64,000 nucleotides of DNA, from the NCBI RefSeq assembly GCF_916858655.1, contig NZ_CAKASL010000001.1, positions 682,001-746,000 of the forward strand, in the 5' to 3' direction. The notes under the pieces were generated by a model that saw only the letters and a program-made list of their open reading frames with translations, searched no databases and was not told where the DNA came from. The position numbers were made by a program, and so were the translations under genes. This stretch comes from Aeromicrobium sp. Leaf350 (GTDB taxonomy: Bacteria; Actinomycetota; Actinomycetes; Propionibacteriales; Nocardioidaceae). Below, piece after piece: positions 14,068 to 45,806 of this stretch. The stretch's first letter is position 1. Each line of letters starts with the position of its first letter.

Positions 14068-15009
14068 ATGTCCCGGGAGCTGTCGCCGTACGTCGAGCTC
14101 GAGCGCGACGCCTGGGCCATGCTGGCCGGCGACGCGCCGCTGCCGCTCACCGCCGACGAGATCGAGCGCGTGCGGGGCCTCGGTGAGGAGCTCGACCTCG
14201 AGGAGGTGCGGCAGGTCTACCTGCCGCTGACCGAGCTCATGGTGCTGCGCATCCGCGCCGCGTCCGGCCTGTACCGGGCCACGGAGAAGTTCCTTGGCAA
14301 CCCGCAGCCGCAGCGCACGCCGTACGTCATCGGCATCGGCGGCTCAGTCGCCGTCGGCAAGTCCACGACGGCGCGTCTCATCCGCGAGCTGCTGGCCCAC
14401 GCGCCCGAGAACCCGACCGTGGAGCTCGTCACGACCGATGGGTTCCTGCTGCCGAACGAGGAGCTCGAGCGCCGCGGCATCCTCGACCGCAAGGGGTTCC
14501 CGGAGTCGTACGACCGCAAGCGGCTCCTGCGCTTCATCATGAGCGTCAAGTCGGGCGCGGAGCACGTCGAGGCGCCCGTGTACTCCCACCTCACGTATAA
14601 CGTGACCGACGAGGTCGTCACCCTCCAGCGGCCCGACGTGGTGATCGTCGAGGGGCTCAACGTGCTCGCGCCGGCCCGCGCGCGGGGCGACGGCAGCCCG
14701 GGCCTGGCGATCAGCGACTTCTTCGACTTCTCGGTCTACGTCGACGCCGCCAACCGCGACATCAAGCGGTGGTACATCGACCGATTCCTGACCCTGCGCC
14801 GCACGGCGTTCGCGGACCCCGAGTCGTACTTCCACCGCTACAGCTCGCTCAGCGACGAGGAGGCCGACGCCCGCGCCCGCCACCTCTGGGACACGATCAA
14901 CTGGCCCAACCTGCGCGAGAACATCCTCACGACCCGCGGCCGCGCCGACCTCGTCCTCCGCAAGGACGCCGACCACAACGTCAAGTGGGTCCGCCTCCGC
15001 AAGATGTGA
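14068..15009 (+). CDS. coaA: Type I pantothenate kinase
   Basis: 313 aa, close to the mycobacterial CoaA. It phosphorylates pantothenate in the committed step of CoA synthesis. The Walker A is 'GIGGSVAVGKSTTARL', followed by 'TTDGFLLPNEELERRGILDRKGFPESYD', 'SVKSGAEHVEAPVYSHLTYN', 'VIVEGLNVL' and 'DPESYFHRY'. The ATG at 14068 (MSRELSPYVEL) aligns with the usual start and has a GACAAT -10-like hexamer 7 nt upstream. ATGs at 14059 and 14011 are less likely. It is divergent from glmS. Confidence 0.95.
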   Translation: MSRELSPYVELERDAWAMLAGDAPLPLTADEIERVRGLGEELDLEEVRQVYLPLTELMVLRIRAASGLYRATEKFLGNPQPQRTPYVIGIGGSVAVGKSTTARLIRELLAHAPENPTVELVTTDGFLLPNEELERRGILDRKGFPESYDRKRLLRFIMSVKSGAEHVEAPVYSHLTYNVTDEVVTLQRPDVVIVEGLNVLAPARARGDGSPGLAISDFFDFSVYVDAANRDIKRWYIDRFLTLRRTAFADPESYFHRYSSLSDEEADARARHLWDTINWPNLRENILTTRGRADLVLRKDADHNVKWVRLRKM

Positions 15010-15024
15010 CCCCGGCTGCCCTGC

Positions 15025-15092
15025 CCCCAGATTTGTGCGCTTACCGACCTTTGTCCCGTCGATTCAGGTCGGTTGGTGCACAAATCTTGGGG
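15025..15092. repeat. REP-like imperfect hairpin, upstream copy
   Basis: The 26-nt left arm (15025-15050) pairs with 15066-15092 across a 15-nt loop. I count 23 Watson-Crick pairs, 2 wobbles, 1 mismatch and a one-base bulge. The arm core is CAGATTTGTGC...TTACCGACCT. It lies between the coaA stop and the predicted nuclease gene, and could also end coaA transcription. A second copy of the right arm sits just after that gene. Confidence 0.85.
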
Positions 15093-15189
15093 CCTTCCTC
15101 ACGTGGGGCGACGGATCCACAGGGCAGGGCCGTCCACAGTCGCCCGATTCCTCGTGGCCGCGCGGCAGAGGCGGGATCACGGTCGTTGG

Positions 15190-16092
15190 ATGGACACCTC
15201 ACGACCGTTCACGACGGCCCAGGCCCGCGCCTCCGGAATCACCGAGCGAGTCCTGGGTGGCCGTCGCTACCGCCGGTTGTTCCGCGGCGTCCACATCTCG
15301 GCTGACAGCACGATCGACCTGTTCACCTGGATCGCGGCTGCGATGCTGCTCCTCCCGCCGGACGCCGCTGTCAGCCACACGACCGCGATGCGTCTGTACG
15401 GACTCGACCCAGGCGGACGACACGGCCTCGAGTTCTCGACCAACCACCCCTCGCCGCGTCGGATACCGGGGCTCACGCTTCATCGACGCCTCGGCACGCT
15501 CCACCCGCGGGCCATCGGCGGATTCCCGACGCTGGGGCCCGACCGCACGTTCGTCGACGTGGCACTGCGACTGCGGCTGCCCGAGCTCGTCGCCTTCGGA
15601 GACCACCTCGTGCACCGCGGACTGACGACGATCGAGGACCTCCGCTGGTACGCCGACTCACGTCATCTCGACGGCGTCAGGCGGGCGCGCCGCATCGCGC
15701 CGCTGGTGCGAGCCGGGGTCGAGTCACCGCGGGAGACGCTGATCCGTCTGATGCTGCGCTTCGGGCGACTCCCCGAGCCGGAGGTCAACGGAGCGATCCA
15801 CGACCGTGACGGCGCCTTCCTCGCTCGCGGCGATCTCGTCTACCGAGCCTGGAAGGTCGTGGTCGAGTACGACGGGCTCCACCACCTCCGCGATCCGCGC
15901 ACCTGGCAGCACGACCTCCGGCGTCGCGAGCTGCTCGAGGCCGCCGGCTGGATCGTCATCGTGATCACGACAGCCGACCTCGACCGCCCGGCATCGATCC
16001 CGGCCCGCGTCCACGAGGCACTGGCCCGCCACGGGTACCAGGGTCCCCGGCCTGCGACGAGCGTCCAGTGGAGCTCTTGGTTCGGCGCCTAG
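15190..16092 (+). CDS. AbiEi-like/DUF559 predicted endonuclease-fold protein
   Basis: 300 aa. The N-terminus 'FTTAQARASGITERVLGGRRYRRLFRGVHI' looks like the winged helix of type IV toxin-antitoxin AbiEi antitoxins. The C-terminus resembles the DUF559/very-short-patch-repair nuclease fold: a Glu in 'ESPRETLI', then 'RGDLVYRAWKVVVEYDGLHH', 'WQHDLRRRELLEAAGW' and 'VIVITTADL', placing D, E-Y-D and H as in PD-(D/E)XK-like enzymes. The ATG at 15190 is chosen at the start of the winged helix; in-frame sequence extends to 15073. No cognate toxin gene is adjacent. Activity is untested. REP-like hairpins lie on both sides. Confidence 0.7.
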   Translation: MDTSRPFTTAQARASGITERVLGGRRYRRLFRGVHISADSTIDLFTWIAAAMLLLPPDAAVSHTTAMRLYGLDPGGRHGLEFSTNHPSPRRIPGLTLHRRLGTLHPRAIGGFPTLGPDRTFVDVALRLRLPELVAFGDHLVHRGLTTIEDLRWYADSRHLDGVRRARRIAPLVRAGVESPRETLIRLMLRFGRLPEPEVNGAIHDRDGAFLARGDLVYRAWKVVVEYDGLHHLRDPRTWQHDLRRRELLEAAGWIVIVITTADLDRPASIPARVHEALARHGYQGPRPATSVQWSSWFGA

Positions 16093-16094
16093 GG

Positions 16095-16160
16095 CACATG
16101 TTGTGCGCGAACCTACCGCCGGCAACCCGACTCAGGTCGGTAAGTGCACAAATCTGGGGG
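16095..16160. repeat. REP-like hairpin, downstream copy with decayed left arm
   Basis: The right arm 16134-16155 matches the upstream copy's right arm (15066-15087) at 20 of 22 positions and continues into GGGGG. The left arm (about 16095-16120) keeps TTGTGC and TACCG blocks but is interrupted, so only part still pairs. It begins 3 nt after the predicted nuclease stop. Confidence 0.75.
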
Positions 16161-16195
16161 CCCTGGCTGGGGGCCGCTCGGGGGCTGGGGTGGGG

Positions 16196-43137: not shown

Positions 43138-44433
<1,296 letters not shown>

Positions 44434-44451: not shown

Positions 44452-44597
44452 CCGGTTTCCCACGAGTCCCCCTACGACTTCGTCGTGGGAGGTGCCCCCA
44501 CGCTCGAATCCCGCATCGAGCGCACGAAACTTCGTGCGCTCGATGCGGGATTCCTGGGTTATCCCAGGAAGTTTCCGACGGTCTCGTGGGAAACCGG
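44452..44597. repeat. Nested-palindrome (cloverleaf-like) element between convergent genes
   Basis: A 15-bp perfect outer stem (44452-44466 with 44583-44597) encloses three hairpins. The first is 44471-44478 with 44482-44489, 8 pairs including one T-G. The second is a perfect 23-bp arm pair 44506-44528 with 44531-44553. The third is 44551-44558 with 44563-44570, 8 pairs, loop TTAT, sharing 3 nt with the second. It fills nearly the whole gap between the gltA stop and the lipoprotein stop. It could act as a two-way terminator, but its size and nesting resemble a MITE or structured repeat. Confidence 0.85.
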
Positions 44598-44598
44598 G

Positions 44599-44985
44599 TC
44601 AGGGGGTGCGGGTGAGGCGGAACGGCTCGCCGCCGTCGGCGGCGGGCAGCACCAGCGCGTCGTCCTCGAGGCGGAGCGGCGTCGTCACCCCGACGTCGGC
44701 CACGAGCGAGGGGTCCAGGCAGCCGCGGAGGGTCGAGATCCACTCCGACAGCACGACCTCCCCCTCCCGGACGGCCCACTCCCCCGAGCCGCTGTTGCAG
44801 CCGTCGTAGGCCTCGCCCCTCCCGCCGCCGTGCAGCACGACGTACGGCGTGCCCGCCGCGACGGCGTCCTCCAGCGGCACCCCGTCGACCGTCCACGTCC
44901 CGACCACCGGGTCGTCACCGCCGTCGTCGCGTCCGCAGGCGGCCAGCACCAGCAGCATCGTCCCGATCATGAGGATCCGCATCAT
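44599..44985 (-). CDS. META-domain lipoprotein
   Basis: 128 aa. The signal peptide 'MMRILMIGTMLLVLAAC' ends in a lipobox. The mature protein resembles the META/HslJ domain: 'VVGTWTVDGVPLEDAV', 'GEAYDGCNSGSGEWAVREGEVVLSEW' and 'STLRGCLDP', with conserved Gly-Cys-Asn and later Cys. These small beta proteins are secreted and of unclear function. The ATG at 44985 is chosen to begin the signal peptide. It is divergent from truA and converges on gltA at the palindrome element. Confidence 0.8.
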   Translation of the reverse strand: MMRILMIGTMLLVLAACGRDDGGDDPVVGTWTVDGVPLEDAVAAGTPYVVLHGGGRGEAYDGCNSGSGEWAVREGEVVLSEWISTLRGCLDPSLVADVGVTTPLRLEDDALVLPAADGGEPFRLTRTP

Positions 44986-45005
44986 CCGATGATGCACCCA
45001 CGGAC

Positions 45006-45011
45006 TAGCGT
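45006..45011 (+). promoter_or_regulatory. -10 element (TAGCGT) for leaderless truA
   Basis: TAGCGT is followed by 6 nt and the truA GTG at 45018, inside the 32-bp divergent gap. Confidence 0.45.
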
Positions 45012-45017
45012 GGACCC

Positions 45018-45806
45018 GTGAGAATGCGGATCGACCTGGCATACGACGGCAGCGGCTTCTCCGGTTGGGCCGTCCAGCCGGGACTCCGCACCGTGCAGGG
45101 TGAGCTCGAGGCGGCGCTGGGCATGATCCTGCGGCTGCCGGAGCCGCCGAGCGTGGTCTGCGCCGGGCGCACCGACGCCGGCGTCCACGCCCGCGGCCAG
45201 GTGGCGCACGTGGACCTCGACACGCATCCCGGGGTGCTGGAGCGACGCCTGCGCCGCTACCTCCCCGACGACATCCGCATCAAGGGCATCCGCGAGGCGC
45301 ACCCCGACTTCGAGGCCCGCTTCGCCGCGACGGAGCGCCGCTACGTGTACCGGATGACCGACCACCCGGCCGGCCCCGACCCGCTGGCCCGCGGCATGAT
45401 CGTCGCCCACCCGCGCCCGCTGACGGTCGACCTGATGAACGAGGCTGCCGAGCACCTCCTGGGCGAGCACGACTTCGCCGCCTTCTGCCGCAAGCGCGAG
45501 GGGGCCACGACGATCCGCACCCTCCTGGCCCTGCGGACCGTGCGGGGCGGCGAGACGATCGCCACGACGGTCCGCGCGGACGCGTTCTGCCACTCGATGG
45601 TGCGCTCGCTCATGGGCTGCCTCGTCGCTGTGGGCGAGCGACGCTTCCCCCCGGAGTTCGCGGCCGAGGTGTTGTCCGGCAAGGTCCGCGACGGACGGGT
45701 CAAGGTCATGGAGCCGCACGGCCTGGTGCTGGAGGAGGTCGTCTACCCCGACGACGACGCGCTGGCGGCCCGCGTCCACGAGTCACGACGGCGCCGGGAC
45801 GAGTGA
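45018..45806 (+). CDS. truA: tRNA pseudouridine(38-40) synthase
   Basis: 262 aa. The catalytic Asp is in '[23 protein letters not shown]'. '[28 protein letters not shown]' and '[20 protein letters not shown]' are further TruA marks. It modifies the anticodon stem-loop of many tRNAs. It begins at GTG and opens a five-gene plus-strand run. It does not follow rplQ as it does in many bacteria; rplQ lies about 2.3 kb away on the other strand. Confidence 0.96.

Follow-up and report, generated by a model that had tools for sequence, protein, structure and literature searches.

A gene-less palindromic element beside gltA in Aeromicrobium and its putative partner, an AbiEi-Vsr-like nuclease gene

What is the large nested palindrome that fills the space between gltA and the convergent gene of a META-domain lipoprotein in Aeromicrobium sp. 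Leaf350? The locus lies in the window, meaning the whole stretch of 64,000 nucleotides analysed here, and the original prediction offered a MITE-like insertion, a recombination site or an RNA element. Genomes and loci carry our own G and L numbers; G000 is the window's own genome (3.5 Mb, three contigs).

The palindrome and its dispersed copies

The features at the locus are the following:

43138 to 44433, + strand: gltA, citrate synthase gene; the element begins 18 bp after the gene end
44453 to 44596, no strand: gene-less palindromic element of 144 bp, a 112-bp unit plus a net insert of 32 bp, recognised by repeats, folds and copies in G000
44452 to 44469, + strand: left arm of the outer stem, the end common to the gene-bearing unit (CGGTTTCCCACGAG)
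44467 to 44500, + strand: second, independent palindromic repeat (TCCCCC...GGGAGGTGCCCCCA) within the left arm, present in four of 19 gene-less G000 copies and free-standing in relatives
44506 to 44553, no strand: central hairpin with perfect 23-bp arms and compensatory changes across 22 hairpins
44551 to 44570, no strand: third hairpin, 90-bp copies of the L072/L074 type lack it and its flank, 22 bp in all
44580 to 44597, - strand: right arm of the outer stem, carrying the left-arm end in inverted orientation
44599 to 45042, - strand: META-domain lipoprotein gene, convergent; the gene end is 1 bp from the element

At the structural level, the nested palindrome beside gltA proved to be real. 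The outer arms (44452-44469/44580-44597) pair at 94% over 18 nt, with the outer 15 bp perfect, and the 23-bp arms of the central hairpin (44506-44528/44531-44553) match without exception. The three hairpins described inside the outer stem are all present: the third has its arms at 44551-44558/44563-44570, and the first sits in the 34-nt stretch 44467-44500, which is a separate inserted repeat. The reading-frame terminus at 44599 agrees with the claim that the element ends 1 bp before the lipoprotein gene. As RNA, the element folds at -110.6 kcal/mol (z -10.32; 0/200 shuffles as good), and the DNA fold of the other strand gives z -10.29. Its neighbours match PF00285 (gltA) and PF03724 (lipoprotein, 27.5 bits with a cut-off of 24), and an Rfam scan of the window at gathering thresholds gave no match.

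With E up to 10, a search of G000 with the element returned 106 pieces. At least 20 loci have element-type ends, 19 of them gene-less and one a 1.2-kb gene-bearing unit; this is a lower bound, because 40 of 53 candidates were scored. Eighteen of the 19 gene-less copies could be delimited (L077 excepted). Lengths of 112 bp and 90 bp occur seven times each; three further copies have 144 bp and one has 122 bp. The two last lengths are 112 + 32 and 90 + 32, that is, a 32-bp insert in four copies, and the window copy has the form 112 + 32. The 90-bp class has two compositions, one without the third hairpin and the other ending at it. The insert, the second repeat, sits in L060 just where it does in the copy beside gltA, whereas L067 has it in the other arm and L069 in the loop of the third hairpin. 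L080, a locus of the close relative G030 that shares a flank with L061, has two such inserts, and the matching G000 place has none.

This second repeat also stands free in other species. It is a palindromic repeat of 33-34 nt, TCCCCC-stem-TTCG-stem-GGGAGGTGCCCCCA, whose stem varies and whose ends are kept in several species of the genus (window 44467-44500; L032, L033, L041, L043, L085, L086 and L091-L093). In L043 and L041 it lies, by eye, apparently within coding DNA.

The central hairpin is maintained by paired changes. The comparison took in 22 hairpins: one from each of the 19 gene-less G000 copies, two from the ends of the G000 gene unit and one from G036. Changes on the two sides occur in 13 of 22 pairs, and pairing holds in 87.0% of cells. 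Not one shuffle out of 500 reached any of five pairing measures, a figure that is no probability because the copies are related, and sliding the partner destroys the pairing.

The 12-mer CGGTTTCCCACG is present in 11 of 49 genomes of the genus, with 32 occurrences in G011, 22 in G000, 16 in G029, five each in G030 and G063, three in G015 and one in each of five others. Among 14 facing end pairs in G011, ten are spaced by 78 bp (90-bp elements), three by 16 and one by 1.24 kb. The exact spacing of 78 is seen by eye in at least G000, G004, G010, G011, G017, G020, G026, G029 and G059, with end sequences that differ. The exact 20-mer of the right end occurs in five stretches among 84,980 species genomes, a collection that may omit records of the window's own genome: four in the MAG nzgw105 and one in a Bacteroidales-labelled MAG. 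So the element sequence is narrow, and the wider pattern becomes visible only via the gene described below. The last of these stretches (L103 1047-1066) is on a contig labelled uncultured Bacteroidales, perhaps mis-binned.

Regarding position, a stop codon lies within 15 bp at 17 of the 19 G000 loci with neighbours called. The G000 loci are convergent in 7 cases, tandem in 11 and divergent in one, with one uncalled (L070, without a called gene on one side); the gene pairs of the window are 8, 33 and 8. Gene calls for this analysis came from a crude GC-by-position script. The position beside stop codons fits a role as terminators or tolerance in their place. The copies could even be ordinary bidirectional terminators of common sequence, spread by recombination without a dedicated enzyme: they adjoin stop codons, their hairpins are strong, and ordinary hairpins follow gltA, by eye, in several relatives (G032, G002, G011, G009, G019). 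The set lengths of 90 and 112 bp argue against this reading, as does the gene family described below, which has long inverted ends to its left and right, and we regard it as decidedly unlikely. The copies may still have an additional terminator role.

Copies were found in G000 and in G030, which supports the MITE-like reading of the original prediction; the finding that would have told against it, no copies anywhere, did not occur. Loci of gltA lacking the element, which the prediction had proposed to look for, also exist: in the 330 bp downstream of gltA of 14 relatives with this side visible, there was neither a CGGTTTCCCACG-type nor a CGGTTTACCA-type core. Target duplications were likewise sought, and none was found. 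At the edges of 17 G000 and 14 G011/G029 copies, direct repeats were no longer than in permuted pairs (p 0.14-0.48); offsets of up to 3 were allowed, and the ends could be misplaced by a few bases. The earlier interpretation is partly supported. The letters of the window could not reveal the gene-bearing partner and its nuclease to it, and it did not recognise one of the three hairpins as a second repeat inserted into the first. Nor was a palindromic target seen, since the flanks of 20 copies (15 from G000, five from G030; segments L067 and L080 cut at their inner ends) were no more complementary than permuted pairs (p 0.77). For 15 G011/G029 copies the same measure gave p 0.04, too weak to use.

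Comparing G011 with G029 covered two G011 sites, one of them rearranged. At L138, the G011 copy is absent from G029, where the flanks are 80% and 87% identical and a different palindromic repeat is present, so sites turn over. At L140, G029 has no element and its neighbourhood is rearranged. The other repeat (GTGCCACCGTTTGGG...GGTGGCGGATCCACCGCGCC) is present as two copies in G029:C1:448032-448255 (L233), where G011 has a 90-bp element.

The gene between the palindromic ends

The gene-bearing unit of G000 lies outside the window (G000:C1:975649-976832), and its ends enclose a gene (975794-976735) for a 314-aa protein. The 1.24-kb end pair of G011 encloses the gene as well, and G029 has the same layout with the gene frame-broken; counting G030 too, four genomes (G000, G030, G011, G029) have the gene within ends of this type. 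At the genus level, a protein search retrieved 48 loci in 36 of 49 genomes with E up to 7.8e-30, the next match being at 1.9e-17. All 48 loci have a long inverted repeat between the upstream and downstream 350 bp, with scores from 17 to 65 and a median of 39.5. When these flanks were dinucleotide-shuffled, the score never exceeded 12, and 29 gltA loci (30 of 45 matches, less L117) scored at most 13. Long inverted ends around one gene family, at 48/48 loci and none so long at gltA, argue against terminators spread by recombination.

The end sequences differ between species (GGTTTCCCACGAG, GGTTTACCACGG, GATTCCCAGG, TTTCACACGCTGCC and others), and the dispersed copies mostly match the ends around their own genome's gene. 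The motif CGGTTTACCANG flanks the fetched gene in 14 of 49 genomes, each with 1 to 34 further such ends. At least four further CGGTTTACCANG ends were present in 13 of these 14 genomes versus 7 of the 35 others (G014: 14), which include 13 without the fetched gene; the seven genomes with such ends and no motif around a fetched gene are evidence against the link. For CGGTTTCCCACG, at least four further ends were found in 4/4 genomes with the motif around the gene versus 1/45 others. Protein and end similarity were correlated over 43 loci (Mantel rho 0.43; permutations as high 0/1000), the median end score rising from about 8 for pairs below 45% protein identity to 56.5 for pairs above 80%. Genomes with a common end type are partly close relatives, so the counts are not independent, and because of this relation by descent the tests show co-inheritance and matching rather than independent events. 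Altogether, the link between gene and repeat is strong, and we infer that the nuclease mobilises the copies.

Some gene-bearing copies have broken frames (L136, L158, L159): a frame break in G029 and in-frame stops in G001 and G066. Elsewhere in G000, a pair of complete 90-bp copies, separated by about 1 kb, encloses a gene with a formamidopyrimidine-DNA glycosylase domain (L071 1492-2566); as this gene is unrelated, neighbouring copies alone make no unit.

That pair shows that a gene could come to lie between copies by chance, a point in favour of a more conventional explanation: the palindromes are MITEs of an ordinary insertion sequence whose transposase is elsewhere or lost, with the nuclease gene as a passenger. 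MITEs typically show inverted ends and gene-less copies. However, the nuclease gene is between the ends in all four genomes of the end type, and at 48/48 loci with differing ends. Moreover, the Y1 transposase profile PF01797 found no match in G000, while 10 of the 14 control genomes gave matches, 6 of them above the cut-off. We consider this explanation very unlikely. A true RAYT as partner was rejected too, since the genome has no Y1 transposase (0 matches of PF01797 in G000 up to E 10).

High-confidence prediction makes the partner product a fusion of two parts, a DNA-binding module of the AbiEi type and a PD-(D/E)XK nuclease domain resembling Vsr and I-Bth0305I. On the AbiEi side, Pfam AbiEi_4 matches 38 of 43 members (the G000 member has no match), and the PADLOC AbiEi models cover residues 11-179 of the G000 protein. 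The AbiEi values from PADLOC are 2.8e-12 (P0001) and 5e-16 (P0002). The predicted structure of the G000 protein has a pLDDT of 92.3 and a pTM of 0.88. Foldseek placed AbiEi on top (4.3e-6), then Rv2827c, and returned I-Bth0305I at E 0.085 with a probability of 0.98. The N-terminal part aligned to AbiEi (6y8q) with Z 10.9 and an rmsd of 6.9 over 182 residues, a value that makes the match as a whole a loose one. The middle part resembles nucleotidyltransferases (Z about 8-10), a likeness that may reflect a widespread arrangement. The domain that starts near residue 200 aligned to the I-Bth0305I catalytic domain with Z 12.2 (96 residues, 2.4 A) and to Vsr with Z 10.6. E204, D237, H245, E248, D250 and K254 are invariant in 43 sequences. 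Predicted structure and alignment together give a Vsr-type catalytic fold with conserved acidic residues. Alignment A1 used 43 of the 48 loci. In-frame stops excluded L158 and L159, a broken frame L136 and a short match L198; L165, which has no stop, is missing by oversight. A sequence-profile search of the PDB with the protein returned nothing up to E 1, and a plasmid collection gave no match at 1e-10.

AbiEi and Rv2827c bind inverted repeats in their own promoters (PMC7319586), which suggests how the ends of the unit are recognised. The same observation, together with the matching PADLOC models, favours another reading: the palindromes would be operators of an autoregulated AbiEi-type regulator, the dispersed copies regulatory or decoy sites, and the nuclease domain would have another job such as defence. 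Yet the palindromes are on both sides of the gene, the dispersed copies are mostly beside stop codons (17/19 loci) and not at promoters, and the nuclease-type residues are invariant, which makes autoregulation unlikely. The G000 unit has as neighbours a TetR-type regulator (TetR_N, PF00440) and an aldolase (F_bP_aldolase, PF01116), and no AbiEii nucleotidyltransferase toxin gene was seen beside it.

A second unit in the window and the wider distribution

The window itself contains a second gene-bearing unit, of another subfamily:

15023 to 15093, no strand: left palindromic end, with 28-nt hairpin arms
15190 to 16092, + strand: AbiEi/DUF559-type gene, start codon approximate (PF04480, AbiEi models)
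16101 to 16161, no strand: right palindromic end, an inverted match to the left end

The first 61 nt of the left end match 16101-16161 in inverted orientation at 77%. The gene matches PF04480 (DUF559) with 21.3 bits (cut-off 20.6), its product has a predicted structure with a pLDDT of 94.1, and an alignment of its profile to the profile of the first subfamily spans 277 columns (E 6.8e-34). The unit, 15023-16161, directly follows a gene ending at 15009.

The first subfamily is narrow, found at 1e-25 in 6 of 396 genomes of the phylum when the best five candidates per genome were scored. Five of nine loci from this search outside the genus had flank scores of at least 17, with flanks measured from the match and not from the ORF. 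Among 20 remote paralogs of the genus, chosen from the weaker matches, 14 scored at least 17 and six below, with outer flanks at 13 or less. Relatives of the window gene 15190-16092 were present at 1e-12 or better in 62 of 118 genomes of the class. Flanks could be scored at 28 class-level loci (30 less L250 and L258, which had too little flank), four of them from the window's own genus, including the window gene. At least 17 was reached by 16 loci (13/24 outside the genus), at least 15 by 22, and 12 were below 17; control stretches 550-1000 bp outside scored at most 14.

Two observations concern the ends of these relatives. GATCATG is common to the inverted ends of class-level homologs from several families (L252, L253, L254, L255, L264, L267). 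In remote paralogs (L203, L205, L206, L207, L209, L219), a short motif is repeated both directly and inverted (e.g. GCTGACGAGTCAC), like clustered binding sites.

Comparison with known systems and meaning

Several known systems resemble the one described here. In REP-RAYT units, two inverted REPs always surround the reading frame (PMC2817692), and RAYTs that satisfy the criteria of PMC2817692 were found only in gammaproteobacteria. The likeness to REPIN-RAYT systems (REPtrons; PMC2817692, PMC3733652) includes a gene between inverted palindromic repeats, gene-less copies in intergenic DNA, and a palindrome kept by paired changes. Here too, inverted palindromic flanks were found at 48/48 loci, and the same repeats are dispersed in the genome. 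On the other hand, the ends are longer and multi-hairpin, and the enzyme is predicted to be an AbiEi-Vsr-like nuclease fusion, not an HUH/Y1 tyrosine transposase. With a REP-RAYT layout, an unrelated enzyme and no Y1 transposase in the genome, the system would work like a REPtron without being one.

TIRtrons share the long inverted ends around a gene, but they encode tyrosine transposases (PMC3733652); the CGTC-tagged REPs described there resemble the present repeats as palindromes without a known enzyme. MITEs of insertion sequences also have ends in common with a gene-bearing element, but here the 17 G000 and 14 G011/G029 copies lack target-site duplications, and the partner's predicted fold is an AbiEi-like module plus a Vsr-like domain instead of a DDE/HUH transposase. 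I-Bth0305I, a Vsr-like homing endonuclease, resembles the modelled catalytic domain in fold (Z 12.2 over 96 residues), whereas here that domain is fused with an AbiEi-like module and encoded between palindromic ends. Finally, the AbiEi antitoxin of type IV toxin-antitoxin systems (6y8q) and Rv2827c share the N-terminal fold, and AbiEi models match, but here a C-terminal nuclease domain is added and the neighbours of the G000 unit are not toxin genes.

Taken together, we suggest that the window element is a non-autonomous, REPIN/MITE-like copy of a palindromic mobile element served by an AbiEi-Vsr-like nuclease, with a probability of about 0.64, and that it perhaps doubles as a terminator. The gene-bearing unit would stay at one or few copies. 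The AbiEi part of its product would recognise its own end motifs, and the nuclease domain would cut either the element, perhaps as a hairpin or cruciform, or the target. Short palindromic derivatives would then be copied in trans via repair into sites beside stop codons, similar to what RAYT enzymes are thought to do for REPs. These copies would be tolerated because they stand in for terminators.

At a broader level, we would give somewhat better than even odds to the following reading: AbiEi-Vsr-like nucleases, which occur in many families of the class, each serve as dedicated enzyme to palindromic mobile elements that form a large and so far undescribed group, in which every protein lineage has its own ends and gene-less copies, placed beside stop codons as terminators. 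In our view the kind is new, since no known transposase class includes the putative enzyme. In the open-licence literature, no account of AbiEi-DUF559 genes with palindromic ends was found, and pieces of the repeat sequences gave matches that, by their listing, were on other subjects. Should the enzyme prove inactive on the ends, what is left would be a new REP-like repeat that has a constant neighbour. Enzymes of this kind might also serve other palindromic repeats without a known transposase.

If the nuclease moves or maintains the palindromes, bacteria would have a second, unrelated REP-RAYT-like solution, in which the gene keeps to one or a few copies and its short palindromic dependants spread at gene ends. 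A protein type that is common in actinobacteria, and so far goes by no other name than AbiEi-like or DUF559, would then have a function, and species-specific repeats at gene ends would be explained. DNA-recognising nucleases would also become available, with flanks of their own that may tell their preference.
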